Assembly (NCBI RefSeq): GCF_002224125.1 | Contig: NZ_NCSM01000014.1 | Coordinates: forward strand, 404,233-468,232 | Reading direction: 5' to 3' | DNA length: 64,000 bases | Source: Streptomyces sp. NBS 14/10 | Lineage (GTDB): Bacteria > Actinomycetota > Actinomycetes > Streptomycetales > Streptomycetaceae | In this document: piece by piece, positions 49,004 through 57,352 of the stretch | Numbering within the stretch: the first letter of the stretch is position 1 | Layout: every line of letters starts with the position of its first letter | The notes under the pieces: generated by a model | Seen by the model: the letters and a program-made list of their open reading frames with translations, nothing else | Told to the model about the DNA's origin: nothing | The model's database searches: none | Translations under genes and position numbers: made by a program

Positions 49004-52000
49004 ATGGGCCGTCAGGAGAGGCCGCTCGATCCCGGCGCGGGCCCCGAGCAGCGGTTCGCGTTCGCGCTGCGCAAGCTGAGGTCGGAGGCCGGAGGACCGA
49101 CATACCGGGCGATGGCGCAGCGCACCCCGTACACGGTCTCGACCCTGTCGCGGGCCGCCGCCGGGGAGCAGCTGCCCTCGCTGGAGGTCGCCCTCGCGTA
49201 TGTGGCCGCGTGCGGCGGGGACCGCGAGGAGTGGGAGCGGCACTGGCGGCAGACGTCCGAGGAGATCACGCTGCGGGCCGTCGAGGACGACGACGCCGAG
49301 CCGCCCTACCAGGGCCTCGCGCGGTTCGAACCGGGGGACCACGAGCGGTTCTTCGGCCGGGACCGGCTCGTCGGCGACCTCGTCGGCCTGGTCCGTACGC
49401 ATCGGTTCGTGGTGCTGGTCGGGGCCTCGGGGAGTGGGAAGTCCTCGCTGCTGCGGGCCGGTTTGATCCCCAGGCTGCGGGGCCCCGACGAGCCGCGCGA
49501 GCCGTCCGAGCCGCATGAGCGCGCTGCCGAGGAGCCGTACGAGAGCGCAGGCGAGCCGTACGAGCGGCCCGCCGCCGTCCGCATCCTCGCCCCGGGCGAA
49601 CACCCCGCCCGTACGCACACCGAAGCGCTCGCGCCGATGAGTGGCGAGGGCGGCGAGGGCGAGACGGTGGTCGTCGTCGACCAGTTCGAGGAGGTCTTCA
49701 CCCTCTGCCGCGACCCGGACGAACGCAAGGCGTTCCTCGACCGATTACTGGACGCCCGCCGCGCCGGAAGCGGGTTACGGGTCGTCGTCGCGGTGCGGGC
49801 GGACTTCTTCGGGCACTGCGCCGAACACCGCGAACTCGCTGAATCCTGCCGGGAGGCCACCCTGCTCATCGGCCCGATGACCCCGGACGAGCTGCGCGAC
49901 GTCATCGTCAAACCGGCCACGGCGGCGGGCCTGGTCGTCGAACGCTCCCTGACCGCACGGCTGATCGCCGAGGTCGACGGCGAGCCGGGCGGGTTGCCGC
50001 TGCTGTCCCACGTGCTGCTCGAGGCCTGGCGGCGACGGAAGGGCCGGACGCTGGCGGAGACCACGTACGACGCGGTCGGCGGGGTGCGCGGGGCCGTGGC
50101 CCGTACCGCCGAGGACGTCTACGCCCGGCTCACCCCCGCCCAGGCGTCGCTCGCCCGCCGCGTTCTGCTCCGGCTGATCACACCGGGTGAGGGGGCGCAG
50201 GACACCCGCCGCGGCGTCGACCGCGCCGAACTCGACTGGGGCGACCCCGCCGACACCCCCGCCGACACCACCCCCGCCGACACCACCGCCGTCCTGGACC
50301 GGCTGGCCCGCGCCCGGCTGATCACGCTGGACGAGAACACGGTCGACCTGGCCCACGAGGCCCTGATCACGGCGTGGCCGAGGCTGCGCGGCTGGGTGGC
50401 GGAGGACCGGGAACGGCTGCGTACGCACCGGCAGCTGACCGAGGCCGCGCGCGCCTGGGAGGAGCTGCGGCGCGAGACGGGCGCGCTGTACCGGGGGACG
50501 CGGCTCGCGGTGGCGCGCGAGTGGGCGGCGCGTGACGGCGCCCTCGACGAACTGAACTCCGTGGAGCGCGCGTTCCTGGAGGCGAGCATCGGCCTGGAGG
50601 ACGGCGAGCGGGCCGCCGCCGCGCGCCGCGCCCGCCGGCTGGCCTTTCTCGCGGCGTGTCTGGCGGTGCTCCTGGTCGTGGTCACGGCCGTCGGCGTGGT
50701 GGCCGTACGGCAGCGGCACAGCGCCGTCGAGGCCCAGCGGGTCGCCGTCTCCCGTCAACTGGCCGCACAGGCGCTGAACTTGGGCGATTCACGGCCCGGT
50801 ACCGCCATGCTGCTCGCCGTGGAGGCGTACCGCACCGCGCCGACGCCCGAGGCGCGCGGGGCCCTGCTGAGCATGTCCGCGCGCCGCTCCTACCAGGCCG
50901 AGCTGAACGGCCACGCCGACGCCGTGTCCGAAGTGGCGTTCAGCCCCGATGGAACACTCGCCAGCGTCGGCCGGGACGGGAAGACGGTGCTGTGGGACGC
51001 CCGCCACCACACCCGGCTGGCCACCCTCACCGGCCACGCCACCTGGCTCAGGGCGGTGGACTTCAGCCCGGACGGGCGCCGGATGGCCACGGGTGGCGAC
51101 GACCGGAAGGTGGTGCTGTGGGATGTGGCGCACCGCACGAAGGTGGCCACCCTCACCGGACACCGGGGGCCGGTCAAGAGCGTCGCGTTCAGCCCGGACG
51201 GCCGTACGGTGGCCGGTTCGAGCGACGACGGGACCGTCATCCTGTGGGATGTCAAAAGCGGCTCCCGGCGGGTCACCCTGACCGGCCACCGCGCCATGGT
51301 GTGGGCGGTGGAGTTCAGCCCGGACGGAAAACTGCTGGCCACGGCCAGCGCGGACCGTACGGTGCGGCTGTGGAGCGCGGCGACCGGTGAGCAACTGGCC
51401 GTGTTACGGGGCCACACCCGGTCCGTGGACGCCGTCGCGTTCAGCCCCGACGGGAAGCTGCTGGCCTCGGCCAGCCAGGACTACACCGCCAGGGTGTGGG
51501 ACGTGCGACGCCGTACCTCGGTGGCCAGGCTCGTCGGGCACGGCGCGGAGGTCAGGGCGGTGGGCTTCAGCCCCGACGGCCGTACGGTGGCCACCAGCGG
51601 ACAGGACCACACGGTCATGCTCTGGGACGCCGAGCGCCACACCCGCCAGGCCACCCTCGTCGGACACGGCACCAACATCTACAGCCTCGCCTACGACCCG
51701 AGCGGCACCCTCCTCGCCACGGCCGGGGAAAGCGGCTCGATCACCCTGTGGGACCCCACCCGGATCCCGCTGACCGGCCTCGCCGACCGGGTCAACAAGG
51801 TGGTGTTCAGCCCGGACGGACGCGCCCTCGCCACAGCGGGCCAGAACGGGTCCGCCGTGCTGTGGGACGTCGTCCACCGCACCCCGCGCGCCGTGCTGCC
51901 CAGTGGCCACGGAACCGTCAGATCGGCGGCGTTCAGCCCGGACGGCCGTACGCTGGCCACGGTCACCGGGATCTCCCAGGACACTCCGACCGGGCCCGCC

Positions 52001-52816
52001 TCCCGGCCGCCGAGCCCCAAGGACCAGACGCTGATGCTGTGGCCGCTCGCCGGCCGCGCGGGCCCGCGGCGCCCCGTCACCCTCACCGGTCACACCGCCC
52101 GGGTCCTGGACGTGGCCTACAGCCCGGACGGGCGGATCATCGCGACGGGCGCCGCGGACAAGAAGGTGATGTTGTGGGACGCGGCCCGGGGGACCCGGCT
52201 CGCCACCTTCACCGCGGACACCGGCACGGAGGGCAGCGGCGTCAACGCGGTGGCGTTCAGCCCCGACGGCCGTACGCTCGCCACCGCCAACTACGACGGC
52301 AGGGTGACTCTGTGGAACGTGGCCCGGCGGACCCGCATGGCCACGCTCACCGGCCACACCGGGCAGGTGCGGGCGGTGACCTTCAGCCCCGACGGCCGCA
52401 CGCTGGCCAGCGCCGGTATCGACCAGACGGTGATGCTGTGGGACGTGGCCAGGCACACCCGCCTGGCGACCCTGGCCGGTGACACCGGGCCCGCGTTCGC
52501 GGTGGCGTTCAGCCCCGACGGCCGTACGCTCGCCACCGCCAACGCGGACACCTCGGTCATGCTCTGGGACGTGGCCCGCCGCAAACAACTGGCCACCTTC
52601 ACCGGCCACACCGCGCAGGTGAGATCGGTCGCCTTCAGCCCCGACGGCCGCACACTGGCCACGGCGGGGGACGACGGCACCGTCCGGCTGTGGAACACCG
52701 ACCCCCGGCGCACCGCGACGCAGCTGTGCTCGGCGCTCTCCCGCGATCTGACCCGCGAGGAGTGGAAGCAGCTGATCCCGGAGAAGTCGTATCGCAGAAC
52801 GTGCGACATGGGCTGA
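49004..52816 (+). CDS. XRE-nSTAND ATPase with 14 WD40 repeats
   Basis: A 1270-residue signalling protein. Domains: XRE-like HTH (about 12-75, YTVSTLSRAAAGEQLPS); nSTAND1 NTPase from about 100, starting PYQGLARFEPGDHERFFGRD, with P-loop VGASGSGKSSLLRAG, Walker B VVVVDQFEEVF and GGLPLLSHVLLEAW; one membrane segment near 548-570 (LAFLAACLAVLLVVVTAV); then 14 WD40 blades, two seven-bladed propellers. Three TTA codons (49745, 49775, 51404) suggest bldA dependence. GAGGGGGAG precedes ATG 49004. Such proteins are switch ATPases; relatives serve development, regulation or defence. The near-identical blade DNA shows recent copying. Next to a second STAND gene on the same strand. Confidence 0.9.
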   Translation: MGRQERPLDPGAGPEQRFAFALRKLRSEAGGPTYRAMAQRTPYTVSTLSRAAAGEQLPSLEVALAYVAACGGDREEWERHWRQTSEEITLRAVEDDDAEPPYQGLARFEPGDHERFFGRDRLVGDLVGLVRTHRFVVLVGASGSGKSSLLRAGLIPRLRGPDEPREPSEPHERAAEEPYESAGEPYERPAAVRILAPGEHPARTHTEALAPMSGEGGEGETVVVVDQFEEVFTLCRDPDERKAFLDRLLDARRAGSGLRVVVAVRADFFGHCAEHRELAESCREATLLIGPMTPDELRDVIVKPATAAGLVVERSLTARLIAEVDGEPGGLPLLSHVLLEAWRRRKGRTLAETTYDAVGGVRGAVARTAEDVYARLTPAQASLARRVLLRLITPGEGAQDTRRGVDRAELDWGDPADTPADTTPADTTAVLDRLARARLITLDENTVDLAHEALITAWPRLRGWVAEDRERLRTHRQLTEAARAWEELRRETGALYRGTRLAVAREWAARDGALDELNSVERAFLEASIGLEDGERAAAARRARRLAFLAACLAVLLVVVTAVGVVAVRQRHSAVEAQRVAVSRQLAAQALNLGDSRPGTAMLLAVEAYRTAPTPEARGALLSMSARRSYQAELNGHADAVSEVAFSPDGTLASVGRDGKTVLWDARHHTRLATLTGHATWLRAVDFSPDGRRMATGGDDRKVVLWDVAHRTKVATLTGHRGPVKSVAFSPDGRTVAGSSDDGTVILWDVKSGSRRVTLTGHRAMVWAVEFSPDGKLLATASADRTVRLWSAATGEQLAVLRGHTRSVDAVAFSPDGKLLASASQDYTARVWDVRRRTSVARLVGHGAEVRAVGFSPDGRTVATSGQDHTVMLWDAERHTRQATLVGHGTNIYSLAYDPSGTLLATAGESGSITLWDPTRIPLTGLADRVNKVVFSPDGRALATAGQNGSAVLWDVVHRTPRAVLPSGHGTVRSAAFSPDGRTLATVTGISQDTPTGPASRPPSPKDQTLMLWPLAGRAGPRRPVTLTGHTARVLDVAYSPDGRIIATGAADKKVMLWDAARGTRLATFTADTGTEGSGVNAVAFSPDGRTLATANYDGRVTLWNVARRTRMATLTGHTGQVRAVTFSPDGRTLASAGIDQTVMLWDVARHTRLATLAGDTGPAFAVAFSPDGRTLATANADTSVMLWDVARRKQLATFTGHTAQVRSVAFSPDGRTLATAGDDGTVRLWNTDPRRTATQLCSALSRDLTREEWKQLIPEKSYRRTCDMG

Positions 52817-52883
52817 GCGCGGTCTCCCCGGTGATCGCGATCTTCCCGATACCGTGTGCGCAGACGCGAGTTGGGGGTGGGCT

Positions 52884-55328
52884 GTGGAGCCGTTCACGAT
52901 GGCGGCGGTGGCCTCGGCGGTCACCACGGTGACCTCGGGCGCCCTGTCGGGCGCGGGCGGGGAGATGGGGCGGCGGAGCTCGGAGGCGCTGGCCGGGCTC
53001 GTACGGAGGATGCGGCGCCGCGACGCGGACCCTGAGCCCGACCCGGGGACGCCGGAGGACCGCGGCGTCCGCGCGGACGAGTCGCCCCTGCTGCCCGCCA
53101 CCGACGAGGAGCGGCGCGAGCTGGCCCGGCAGTTGTGGGAGAGCTCCCGCACGTCTCCCGGCTTCGCCCGCGACGTGACGGCCTGGTTGCGGGAGACCGG
53201 GTGGCTGGGGTCGCGCGCCGTCCCCGCCGTGGCTCCCGGGGCGTCCCGCCCGCGGATGCTGCCGCCCGCGAACGCCGCCTTCACCGACCGCGAGGCGCTG
53301 CCGGACCAGATCGCCCGGGTGCTGGACGGCGAGGAGAGGGCCGACGGCGTCCCGGCGGTGGTGGTGCTGGTGGGGCCCGGCGGTATCGGGAAGACCGCGG
53401 CGGCCGTGCACTGCGCGCACCGGCTCACCGAGCGCTTCCCCGACGGCCAGCTCTACATCGATCTGCGGGGGCAGTCCGCGACGACGGCGCTGACCCCCTC
53501 CGAGGCGCTGGTCCGCCTCCTGGACGCGCTGCGGGTGCCGACCGGCCGGCTGCCGGCCGACGAGCGGCGGCTGAGCGAGCTCTACCGCGACCGCACGGCC
53601 GAGCGGCGCATGGTCGTCGTACTGGACAACGCCCACTCCGAACGGCAGGTCAGGCCGCTGCTGACCGCCGCCCCGGAGTCCCTGGCCATCATCACCAGCC
53701 GCTACCGCCTCGACCGGCTCGCGGCCGATCCGGGCGCCAAGGTGATCAGGCTCGACCCGCTGACCACCGCCGACTCGGTCCGGCTGCTGACCCGCATCGT
53801 GGGCCGGGACGCGACGGCCGGGCGCGGGCCGGGCCCCGGTGTCGCGGCGGTCGCGGAGCGGTGCGGCGGGATTCCGCTCGCGCTGTGCGAGACGGGCGCC
53901 CGCGTCGCCGTACGGGAACACCTCACTTGGGACACCGTCGAGCGGCAGCTGTCCGAGCGGGCACACCGAAGGGAACAGGAGGCCCTGTCCATGGATGACC
54001 GGTCCGCCCGGGGCGCGGTGGACCTCACCACCGACGTCACGTACGGGGAACTGAGCCCGCGGGCGGCCCTGCTGTACCGGATGCTCGGGGTGTGGCCGTG
54101 GCCCGGTATCACCGTGGGGGCCGCCCGGAAGGCCGTGGACGCGGCGGACGACGACGAGGCGCGGGCGCTCCTCGACGAACTGGCGGGCGTCCATCTGCTC
54201 GAGGAAGTGGGGGAGGAGCGCTACCGCTTCCACGACCTCGTACGCGACCACGCCGCGCGGTGCGGCGAGGCGGAGGACCGCCACGCCGACCGGGCGGCGG
54301 CCGTGCGCCGCGTCGTCGGCTGGTACCTGGGGTTCGCGGCGGCGGCCGACCTCCGCGTCATCCCCGGGCGCTGGCGGCTGGGCCCCGCCTACGCACGGCT
54401 GGCGCCGCCCGCGGCGGACCGCGACCCTGAGGACGGCCGCCTCGCCTTGGCCGAACTGCGCGCCGAACGCGAGAACCTGGCCGCGGCCGTACGGGCCGCC
54501 GAGCACCACGGCTTCGACGAACTGGCCTGGCAGCTGTGCGAGGCCATGTGGGGCCTGCATCTGCGCCTCGGCTTCCACGAACAGTGGGTCGAGACCCACC
54601 TGAAGGGCGTGGCGGCCGCCCGCCGGAGCGCCGCGGAGTTCGGCGACCCGCGGGCCGAGGGCCGGGTGCTGGTCCAGCTCGCCTTCGCCCGCATGGGCCT
54701 CGAAAGCTGGCCCGAGGCCGAGGAAGCCCTGGTGAACGCCGCCGCCGCGGACGAGCGGGCCGGGCACCACCGCGGCCAGGCGAGCGCCGTCGAGGCGCTG
54801 GGGCTGCTGCGGCTCAAGCAGTGGCGATACCCCGAGGCGCAGCGGAGTTTCGAGGAGGCCCGGCAGGTGCTGGGGCGGATCCGCCCGGGGGACGACGGCG
54901 CGGCGGACGTGCCCCGCGCCCTGGCGCTGCTCGACCACCACACCGGCCGCGCCCTGCGCGGACAGGAGCGGTACGGCGAGGCGGTGCGCCGACTCCACGA
55001 GGCCCTGGCCCACTTCCGGGCCCTGCCTGAGCCCGATCTGTACAACGAGGGCCGGGTGTACATGAGCCTCGGCGAGACGCATCTGGACGCCGGTGACGCC
55101 GAGGCGGCCCGCGTCTGCCTCGACGAGGCCATCGCCACCATGGGCCGGGAGGGCGCCGAACTCCAGCACGCCGACGCCGCGGAGATGCGGGCCCGCTGTG
55201 CGAGGGCGCTGGGCGACCCGGCCGCGGAGGCCGGCGATCTGCGCACGGCGGTCGCGCTGTACGAGACGGTGGGCGACCAGGCGTCGGTCGAGCGCGTGCG
55301 CGCGCGGTTGGCGGAGGTCACGGAGTGA
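52884..55328 (+). CDS. NB-ARC STAND ATPase with tetratricopeptide repeats
   Basis: An 814-residue AP-ATPase. An N-terminal helical region (MAAVASAVTTVTSGALSGAGGEMGRRSSEA) may be an effector-associated domain. NB-ARC runs from about 140 to 420: P-loop GPGGIGKTAAA, Walker B VVVLDNAHSE, sensor ITSRYRL, CGGIPLAL and the winged-helix YRFHDLVRDHA. From about 470 to the end there are TPR-type helices for ligand sensing. GTG 52884 is picked, with GGGGGTGGG upstream; the frame is open to 52854. It lacks the SARP DNA-binding domain of AfsR relatives, so it is not a simple activator. It follows the WD40 STAND gene by 67 bp. Role unknown: stress signalling or defence. Confidence 0.88.
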   Translation: MEPFTMAAVASAVTTVTSGALSGAGGEMGRRSSEALAGLVRRMRRRDADPEPDPGTPEDRGVRADESPLLPATDEERRELARQLWESSRTSPGFARDVTAWLRETGWLGSRAVPAVAPGASRPRMLPPANAAFTDREALPDQIARVLDGEERADGVPAVVVLVGPGGIGKTAAAVHCAHRLTERFPDGQLYIDLRGQSATTALTPSEALVRLLDALRVPTGRLPADERRLSELYRDRTAERRMVVVLDNAHSERQVRPLLTAAPESLAIITSRYRLDRLAADPGAKVIRLDPLTTADSVRLLTRIVGRDATAGRGPGPGVAAVAERCGGIPLALCETGARVAVREHLTWDTVERQLSERAHRREQEALSMDDRSARGAVDLTTDVTYGELSPRAALLYRMLGVWPWPGITVGAARKAVDAADDDEARALLDELAGVHLLEEVGEERYRFHDLVRDHAARCGEAEDRHADRAAAVRRVVGWYLGFAAAADLRVIPGRWRLGPAYARLAPPAADRDPEDGRLALAELRAERENLAAAVRAAEHHGFDELAWQLCEAMWGLHLRLGFHEQWVETHLKGVAAARRSAAEFGDPRAEGRVLVQLAFARMGLESWPEAEEALVNAAAADERAGHHRGQASAVEALGLLRLKQWRYPEAQRSFEEARQVLGRIRPGDDGAADVPRALALLDHHTGRALRGQERYGEAVRRLHEALAHFRALPEPDLYNEGRVYMSLGETHLDAGDAEAARVCLDEAIATMGREGAELQHADAAEMRARCARALGDPAAEAGDLRTAVALYETVGDQASVERVRARLAEVTE

Positions 55329-55331
55329 ATC

Positions 55332-55395
55332 TGTGGTGAGTATGGGACGGCGACACGCCGACGCGATGGCGTGTCGCTGTCCCATACTCACCACA
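55332..55395. repeat. Dispersed 64-bp hairpin element, copy 2
   Basis: Arms 55332-55359 and 55368-55395, 8-nt loop. The left arm begins TGTGGTGAGTATGGGACGGC, the same as at 28703 apart from changes matched on the other arm (CG to TA at the third pair). It starts 3 bp after the NB-ARC gene stop and ends 2 bp before the stop of the convergent transferase gene. Confidence 0.85.
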
Positions 55396-55397
55396 AA

Positions 55398-57171
55398 TCA
55401 GGCCGACAGGCGCTCCACCGCGACGCGGTGGTGTGCCGCCCCGGTGACCACGGTCAGCTCCGCCTGCGCCGCGCCGAGCGGCTTGGCCCCGAGCCAGGCC
55501 AGCAGCGCCGACGCGTACGCCGCCGGGTCGCACAGGTCGGCCCGGCCGGTCCCGTCCGGGGCGGCCGTCAGCCGCACCAGATCCCCCTGCCGGGTGCGCA
55601 CCGTGCAGCGGTCCGGACCGGTCACATACGCGGCCAGGGCACAGTGCGGATGGCGCGCCAGGACCTCCGCCGTCCAGGCGGCGGGCGGGCCGACCCGGGG
55701 GTCGTCCGCCGCGCCGTACCGTACGACGACGTCCGCGACGCTCAGCCGCCCGGCGTCCTGGGTGTCCTCGTGCACCGCGGTGTGCGCGCCGTCGGCGTCC
55801 GGGTCCTCCGGCTCGTGGGCGGTGTCGGCGTAGCGGGTGACGGCGACGGTCGGCGGGTCGGCGTCGATCAGCCGGGTCAGGACGCGTACGGGCGCGGTGC
55901 GTTCGGCGGGCTCGTACGGCGGCAGCGGCAGCCGGTCGAGGAGGGCGGGGCGGTCGGCGGGCTCGGGGATGCCGATGAGGTCGTAGAACAGGCGGCGCAG
56001 CAGACCGGCGGAGCGGCCCGGCGCGGATGTGGTCTGGGCGGCCAACTCGGCGTACCGGCTGGGGTCATGGCCCTGGACGGCGCGTTCGATCTGCGCGCGC
56101 AGGCTGCCGTGCGGGCGGAGCTTCGGGGCGGTCCGGCCGAGCGCGGCGACCGGCGAGCCGGGGTCGAGGTCGCCGTCGGGGAACGCGCCGAGGAGGGCGG
56201 GCCTGCCGATGGAGGCCGCGTAGTACGTGACGCTGCTGTGGTCGCCCAGGACGCAGTCCGCCGCTATCAGGGCCTGCCGCCAGCCGTGCAGTTCGGAGAT
56301 CAGGCCGAGGCCGGCCCGGCGCGCCCGGTCCAGCCAGCCCCGGACCTGCCCGGGGCCGTGTCCGTACCAGATGTTGGGGTGCAGGACGGCCACCGTGCGG
56401 TATTCGTCGGCCGGCAGCTCGGCCGCCAGGCGGGGCAGCAGCCAGGGCAGCAGATCGCCTTCGCCGTTGCTCTCGGTGTCGCCGTCGCCGAAGAGGGAGC
56501 GCGGCGCCCAGGTGGAGCTGACCACGACCAGCCGCTGATGCGGGGCGACACCGAGCGCGCGGCGGAAGCGTTCGCGGTACGGGAGGCCGTCAAGGATGCG
56601 GTCGTAGCAGGGGTCCCCGGCGAGGACGGCCGTCGCTGCCGCCTCCGGGCAGGCGGTGCCGAGCCGGTCCAGCTGCTCGGGGTGGGACAGGACGGTGGCG
56701 GAGGCGATGGGGCGGCCGTCGTGCAGCAGCCACTCGGGGGCCAGCCCGAAGACCGGTGTTGTCCGGTGTTGTCCGGTGTTGTCCGGTGTTGTCCGGTGTT
56801 GCGAGCTTCTTATTGTACCCAACGCCATGCGACAGCACGGCCAACTCGCCTTGCAGTGCGTGGAGTTGACCACCGTAGCTCGCGGACACCGCCAGGTCGA
56901 CGGGGGTGTCCTTCGCCTGCTCCCAGGGGAGGACCGGCAGCCCCGCGGCGGCCAGCAACTCGGGCACCCCGGCCAGAAAGGGCGAGGACTGGGTGCACGT
57001 CGCCAGCAGTTGCACCCGCAGATCGCCGCTGAGCAGCGGGAGCACGTCCAGCAGCCGGGTCGCGGAGGTGACGTTGTGCACCACGAGCAGCACCCGGCGG
57101 CACTGTGCCCGGGTCACCCACCGCTCCGCGTCGGTGCCGACCGGAACTCTCAGCCGCGGCGTGCCCGTCAT
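55398..57171 (-). pseudogene. CDP-glycerol-transferase/GT-B-like gene, out of frame at a 10-bp tandem repeat (possible phase-variable gene)
   Basis: From ATG 57171 the protein reads normally to GVGYNKKLATP, then enters a 10-bp repeat (56751-56800). With five units the frame is wrong and ends at 56590 after 193 codons. The rest (VFGLAPEWLLHDGRP onward to 55398) is open in the frame that would be reached with four units, giving 587 residues. The motif GDHSSVTYYAASIGRPALLG resembles the active-site loop of TagB/TagF CDP-glycerol glycerophosphotransferases, and NIWYGHGPGQVRGW is another landmark. A role in making an envelope polymer is therefore possible. Streptomycete relatives are often annotated oddly as translation factor. 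May be phase variable, a true pseudogene or an assembly error. Confidence 0.75.
56751..56800. repeat. Five copies of GTCCGGTGTT inside the transferase-like gene
   Basis: Four perfect units (56761-56800) and one with a single change (56751-56760, GACCGGTGTT). Ten bases is not a multiple of three, so each gain or loss moves the reading frame. The unrepeated sequence (one unit) would be in frame and reads ...KKLATPVFGLAPEW, probably the ancestral state. Confidence 0.92.
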
Positions 57172-57352
57172 CCTGGCGATCTTACCGGCGGTGACCTTGG
57201 TCGTTCTTCGCGCTGCACCCAACCGATCTTTGTCCTGTGAGTGGGGAAAGTCTGCAGTAATCCATGCACAACTTCTTCCCAGGTCCAGCAGCCGCTGCTA
57301 CGTTCCCTACGAAAGCCCGGCACTGGGGCGGAATCTGGGCGGGGAGGGGACA

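Follow-up and report, generated by a model that had tools for sequence, protein, structure and literature searches.

A tandem repeat kept at one site of a glycosyltransferase-like gene appears to be a long-standing on/off switch that has gone unnoticed in soil bacteria

When a short tandem repeat throws the two halves of a gene out of frame, has the gene been lost, or has it been switched off? This question is raised by a locus of Streptomyces sp. NBS 14/10, which lies in a stretch of 64,000 nucleotides (the window) and which an earlier note had read as a surface-polymer transferase-like gene with a 10-bp repeat in its coding region. On the minus strand of the window, Tandem Repeats Finder reports an array of period 10 at 56753..56801 (4.9 copies, 100% matches, score 98), and in the minus-strand reading its units are CCGGACAACA. 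The earlier note had placed five GTCCGGTGTT units at 56751-56800; the array itself is real, but that frame of units is off by 1-2 bases and its first unit carries one mismatch (A for T). The claim that the repeats sit inside an otherwise open coding region was borne out, as the perfect copies separate two open halves in different frames. The N-terminal part of the GT-B-like protein (125 aa, MTGTPRL...HGVGYNKKLAT; 56797..57171, minus strand) begins with the ATG at 57171 and stops at the array, and it shares 66-84% identity with the N parts of 29 other loci. The C-terminal part (452 aa plus stop, PVFGLAPEW...; 55398..56756, minus strand) is open and conserved, and its frame differs from that of the N part. 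By frame comparison, the array holds 40 nt more than a single unit would, which puts the downstream half out of frame, so that the gene is OFF in the window assembly; the predicted out-of-frame product, counted from the ATG at 57171, would have 193 aa and a wrong-frame tail (56590..57171, minus strand; ORF 56590..57222). The frame arithmetic was also right: with 1, 4 or 7 units the gene reads as a single frame (577, 587 or 597 aa), and with 5 or 6 it does not. A 2.6-unit pattern searched in the 12.1-Mb genome of the strain itself matched only inside the window array, with no match for the reversed control, and arrays occupy the orthologous site in other species; the array is thus more than chance. 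Judging from the letters, the 10-bp unit CCGGACAACA corresponds to the common 7-bp unit CCGGACA extended by ACA.

The site was followed through the genus by searching 392 Streptomyces genomes with the C part (150 had been searched earlier with DNA). Among the matches listed, from which short fragments may be missing, 90 genomes were classed as orthologue carriers and kept apart from paralogues at about 40-47% identity; two of the orthologues (L053 and L087), whose contigs end at the array, were dropped, leaving 88. Among these matches, a tandem array of at least 3 copies was present at the site in 72 of the 88 orthologues, always between the conserved motifs HG.GY.K.L, which precedes it, and FG......W, which follows it. 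The unit is 7 bp long in 62 arrays, 10 bp in seven and 8 bp in three, with 24 different unit sequences and a maximum of 33.7 copies, and none of the 72 counted arrays has a unit that is a multiple of three. Two 6-bp runs were seen, one of 3 copies that falls outside the 72 (L014) and one of 9 copies that adjoins a 7-bp array (L170). Forty of the arrays leave the gene in frame (ON) and 28 break it (OFF), two run off the contig and two hold N runs; the 16 orthologues without an array comprise 14 ON and 2 OFF genes. ON genes, 40 of the 68 readable arrays, are in excess of the one third expected at random (p = 2.5e-5). Three sets were drawn up, A1 with 44 of the 54 ON orthologues, A3 with 34 of those 44, and A4 with 27 of 256 database proteins. 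A set of 80 named loci, one of which (L138) was dropped because its contig ends at the array, gave 52 ON and 12 OFF in 64 arrays; it is biased to full-length matches and was excluded from the frequencies. No array is present in the database proteins examined from S. antibioticus and S. olivaceus, which seem to be permanently ON, an appearance tempered by the fact that broken genes are less likely to enter a protein database.

ON/OFF control by repeat length, as the earlier note had proposed it, is strongly supported by these non-triplet arrays and by those in Frankia and other families described below, a far wider range than the note could have known. Two outcomes that would have spoken against it did not occur: relatives do not share one fixed in-frame number of units, and similarity to homologues extends to either side of the array. 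A further suggestion, that the array had grown from one copy, found no support. Since 4 or 5 units are present in the closest relatives and arrays of 7-bp units are widespread, an array is probably ancestral at the site.

Closely related loci differ in the number of units. The window and S. milbemycinicus NRRL 5739 (L129) are identical at 1806 of 1884 aligned bases (95.9%), and their internal indels measure 10, 9 and 3 bp; the 10-bp indel, the sole one that is not a multiple of three, is exactly one unit, giving 5 units and OFF in the window versus 4 units and ON in S. milbemycinicus, whose 4-unit protein is present in the protein database (P0001). In S. anthocyanicus, strain NBC 01668 has 17.57 copies and is OFF, and strain NBC_01372 has 9.57 copies and is ON. 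Their coding sequences show no substitution and differ solely by 56 bp, that is, by eight GCCGGGA units, while the surrounding 10.7 kb holds 43 substitutions and seven other small gaps (one at the end); the annotated gene is a 1311-bp C half in NBC 01668 versus a 1770-bp full gene in NBC_01372. This was the only clean same-species pair found, and pairs at 100% identity are probably one genome present twice. The paralogues L111 and L113 (95.8%) have 33.7 and 17.7 copies and are OFF and ON, the arrays of L012 and L069 (94.1%) differ by 7 bp and are ON and OFF, and those of L006 and L009 (94.2%) differ by 63 bp, both being ON. Equal counts were found in L039 and L121 (97.2%, both 4 units) and in L052 and L146 (91.4%). 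S. varsoviensis P0017 and L133 share only 93.8% identity, and a S. rimosus query returned no sister strains with other counts among the best 120 protein matches listed. Among further plasmid loci, those of two S. coelicoflavus strains are both OFF, that of Streptomyces sp. SYP-A7193 is ON and the Embleya locus has no array. Three features of phase-variable genes were found here: an intragenic array whose unit is not a multiple of three, conserved halves on either side of it, and a copy number that varies between near-identical genomes with both states represented. Within arrays the units themselves are also replaced. In L192, L196 and L200, whose flanks are about 91-93% identical, the arrays have become uniform for units a single base apart (CCGGACG, CCGGAAG). 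In L194 and L198 a variant unit is spreading through the array; this is an ongoing concerted turnover of units.

Could the broken frames be errors of assembly or sequencing? Assemblies do break or hold N runs at the arrays of L053, L087, L138, L077 and L081, and counts of long arrays in draft genomes therefore need care. The window array, however, is only 49 bp long, less than a usual read, and both S. anthocyanicus loci lie on complete linear plasmids. In assemblies with at most 10 contigs, by rounded contig counts, the 31 arrays comprise 17 ON and 14 OFF genes, 11 of the latter without any other lesion, and in single-contig genomes 8 are ON and 7 OFF. We therefore consider it extremely unlikely that such errors account for the broken frames.

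If the repeat were a neutral microsatellite in a dispensable gene, OFF copies would be pseudogenes on their way out. In 27 of the 28 OFF genes the distance across the array is not a multiple of three, 25 retain two complete halves, and in 24 the frame of the array is the only lesion seen. As regards the other four, L057 (G009) is OFF through an element inserted just before the array and not through the frame, L034 (G241) and L100 (G090) carry deletions of about 30-50 codons that take in the HG motif and reach up to the array, a pattern which hints that larger deletions are promoted by the array as well, and L103 has a C half shortened to 251 aa; three of these four belong to the set of genomes with 10 contigs or fewer. 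The insertion in L057 measures about 0.9 kb, by eye resembles a small transposase gene, and stands directly before a 13-copy array. Both halves of the gene are under purifying selection: over the coding halves, dN/dS is 0.141 between the window (OFF) and S. milbemycinicus (ON), and five more ON-OFF pairs, one of which joins two paralogues, gave 0.151-0.273. Values for three OFF-OFF pairs were 0.208-0.283, and those for three ON-ON pairs, one without arrays, 0.179-0.226. On a tree of 84 C parts, with the state scored for 67 arrays and the unit sequence for 69, ON/OFF changes numbered 22 versus a mean of 21.4 after shuffling (216 of 300 shuffles at or below), and changes of unit sequence numbered 32 versus a mean of 48.8 (0 of 300 at or below). 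The state is without phylogenetic signal and the unit sequence has it; ON and OFF thus alternate more quickly than species diverge, and the unit is passed on by descent.

The tendency to form arrays at all was addressed by a census of perfect arrays (period 4-15, at least 4 copies, at least 28 bp) in 1.64 Mb around the 80 named loci, in which 59 of 76 arrays fell at the site; some of the 17 others lie in neighbouring GT paralogues (L123, L125) or at the site itself (L138, at a contig end). A 33-base GAGCCGG pattern matched in 28 of 150 Streptomyces genomes and its reversed control in one, a preference that suggests a general tendency of this unit. Of the 30 GAGCCGG loci returned (L251-L280), eight belong to the GT site and the other 22 apparently lie within or between genes of other kinds, and part of the array growth may therefore reflect a general mutational tendency. 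The special feature is that the site keeps arrays across species, since heptad arrays themselves arise elsewhere too. These outlying GAGCCGG arrays agree with a neutral origin, as do the lack of a match to the C part in 216 of the 392 Streptomyces genomes and the additional lesions in 4 of the 28 OFF genes. On the other side stand the 24 OFF genes without another lesion, dN/dS values of 0.14-0.28, the scatter of OFF genes over the tree, the excess of ON genes over one third, the concentration of census arrays at the site and not in the flanks, and the use of the same site in other families. Taken together, these observations make the view of OFF copies as decaying pseudogenes quite unlikely.

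What kind of protein is encoded by the gene? The AlphaFold2 (AF2) model, with a pLDDT of 85.5, has a GT-B fold over residues 25-401 according to the structure model and Foldseek, whose best match was the teichoic acid polymerase TarL (8va1, E 3.5e-11). We conclude from the model that the protein is TarL/TagF/2-epimerase-like and a probable glycosyltransferase. The earlier note had suggested a CDP-glycerol transferase, and this stood as far as the fold is concerned; at the family level, Pfam PF04464 was weakly matched by 8 of 44 members (E threshold 0.1, best value 3.5e-5), the two window halves scanned separately against PF04464 gave no match, and hhalign against 12 PF04464 proteins of relatives was not significant (probability 2.3, E 0.021). 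In the rows listed, the TagF/TarL teichoic acid polymerases (PF04464) and UDP-GlcNAc 2-epimerases share 9-17% identity with the protein, which, unlike them, bears an extra C-terminal domain for which no clear match was found. A role in surface polymers may be proposed by analogy.

The array falls in a loop of this model, and the sole internal run with pLDDT below 50 (residues 131-133) is in that loop. The array could thus serve to diversify the length of a linker or acceptor-binding loop, frame changes being accidental, as the low confidence of the loop and the great differences in loop length between in-frame alleles would allow. Yet units of a multiple of three would tune the loop without breaking the gene, and all 72 arrays have units of 7, 8 or 10 bp, which makes loop tuning very unlikely as the purpose of the array. 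It is also conceivable that OFF alleles still give a working enzyme, either by ribosomal frameshifting in the array or through two half-proteins that reassemble. Arrays read out of frame often contain no stop codon, and for the C half a start in the proper frame can lie further upstream, as at 55398-56873 (491 aa) and in annotated C-half proteins such as P0017, but the C-half proteins examined start at different places, and we give such working OFF alleles a minimal chance.

The site is also used outside the orthologues. Seventeen paralogues were read, eight with 7-bp arrays at the same site (4 ON, 4 OFF) and nine without an array, all ON. In S. macrolidinus RY43-2, heptad arrays at L125:1534-1634 and L125:5930-6033 lie less than 10 kb from the orthologue and, by eye, beside GT-like frames; this strain may have three switchable copies side by side. 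One extra S. macrolidinus array is placed near the N-terminus, unlike the usual site. Class-wide searches found relatives in 30 of 345 and 38 of 394 genomes from several families, and 22 loci from outside Streptomyces were picked by hand, with L229 and L230 left out as weak. Contig ends truncate two of the 22 (L215, L224). Arrays with other units of 7 or 8 bp, such as ACAGGAA and GAAACCG, are present in 14 (9 ON, 5 OFF), and the six rows without an array, in which one genome appears twice, are ON. Frankia is among the families with arrays: L208 is 100% identical to a F. tisae protein over 73% of the query, L211 matches F. gtarii at 99-100%, and in its C part L209 is 100% identical to F. canadensis. 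Kitasatospora and Streptantibioticus are likewise represented among the named genome loci that have arrays. Since 7- and 8-bp units read in frame yield peptide repeats of 7 and 8 residues, in-frame arrays can be recognised in proteins. In the 213 HG-motif proteins (out of 256 database proteins drawn from the best 120 of three lists), 107 have a 7-residue, four an 8-residue and one a 12-residue repeat at the site, and 101 have none; the genera in this protein set include Frankia, Streptosporangium, Saccharopolyspora, Amycolatopsis, Lentzea, Actinocorallia and Lipingzhangella. The locus in the window is most probably a single instance of a repeat-driven switch that is widespread and keeps its position.

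The gene also has a conserved companion. On the plus strand of the window, a STAND-type NTPase of 824 aa with NB-ARC and TPR domains by Pfam (52854..55328) converges on it, with 69 bp between the two stop codons; an inverted repeat seen by eye between these stops (55332..55395, 28-base arms, one mismatch) is likely a two-way terminator. When the ORFs of six seed neighbourhoods were compared, the STAND NTPase was the only neighbour that recurred widely, and the other ORFs that matched more than 8 loci overlie the GT or the STAND gene itself. Of 79 named loci, 71 have it in convergent orientation no more than 3 kb away, one has it on the same strand, four have it far away, and in three it was not found; the ends of the two genes are often within tens of bases of each other or overlap. 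On the S. anthocyanicus plasmids only small genes are annotated in its place. PADLOC had no model for the GT, the STAND or the ROK protein. Directly upstream of the NB-ARC/TPR gene, the window holds a large gene (49004-52816), by eye an ATPase with WD40 repeats.

We propose that the array is a simple-sequence contingency switch that acts by slipped-strand phase variation, a reading we hold to be highly probable. Units would be gained and lost during replication by slipped-strand mispairing, each step altering a flexible loop in the N-terminal half of the GT-B-like enzyme by 7, 8 or 10 bp. One register in three would give the full enzyme (ON), the other two an early end of the protein (OFF), and later changes in unit number could restore the frame. 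The OFF state would presumably mean loss of activity, the substrate may be a cell-envelope glycan or a teichoic-acid-like polymer, and pressure from phages or competitors may be the selective force. More tentatively, and with less than even confidence, the locus could belong to an ancient, class-wide contingency family in which the first domain of a GT-B enzyme carries a heptanucleotide site that is continually renewed, forming a module with the STAND gene at least in Streptomyces; under this same doubtful joint reading the family would range over Streptomyces, Kitasatospora, Frankia and other actinomycete families. In one speculative form of it, the enzyme sets a surface glycan recognised by phages or competitors, the switch keeps populations mixed, and the STAND protein watches over the state of the glycan or reacts to it.

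Most known cases of phase variation through repeats come from bacteria restricted to a host. In Haemophilus influenzae and Neisseria, such repeats are for the most part tetranucleotide or homopolymer tracts close to the 5' end of the gene, and the 7-bp repeats of hmw1A and hmw2A act at the promoter of an adhesin and not on the reading frame of an enzyme. Here, unlike in those host-restricted species, the carriers are free-living actinomycetes, the GC-rich units of 7, 8 or 10 bp come after about residue 125, and the array keeps its position as the unit sequence is replaced. The logic is otherwise that of the phase-variable glycosyltransferases of H. influenzae and Neisseria, where, in the parts of the sources consulted, an intragenic non-triplet array likewise sets the gene ON or OFF through its frame (PMC2651432, PMC6530457), and hmw1A and hmw2A of H. 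influenzae likewise have a heptanucleotide unit whose number affects a surface protein (PMC10127715). Within the open-access literature, as far as its retrieved passages go, Pgl was the only repeat-switched system found for Streptomyces; it also varies in phase by a changing repeat, a G tract in pglX, at 10^-2 to 10^-4 (PMC4365076). Pgl differs from the present system in having a homopolymer tract in another gene for another protein, whereas the array described here is not a G tract and its gene has no PADLOC match. The switch itself is unreported in the titles and abstract openings of the open-access papers listed by the searches. A term search of the main text of a 2025 review of phase variation (PMC11868660) returned neither Streptomyces nor Actinobacteria; passages of the GeneTack survey (PMC3711429) mention Streptomyces once, on drrAB, those of PMC10612213 describe a tagF-named gene of S. 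rimosus and no repeat switch, and in those of PMC5982138 phase-variable phiC31 resistance is only cited.

What would such a switch mean for these organisms? The same logic is now seen in antibiotic producers that live freely as mycelia and in Frankia, a nitrogen fixer, at a single conserved site and over large evolutionary distances, and it predicts mixed ON and OFF populations in ordinary strains. The switch could explain variable phage sensitivity or surface traits. It also carries a warning for annotation, as a database entry for the GT-B-like gene may represent an OFF allele or begin at a displaced start. The database name 'Translation initiation factor 2', attached to P0020, P0044, P0051 and others, in and out of frame, is apparently a wrong automatic name.
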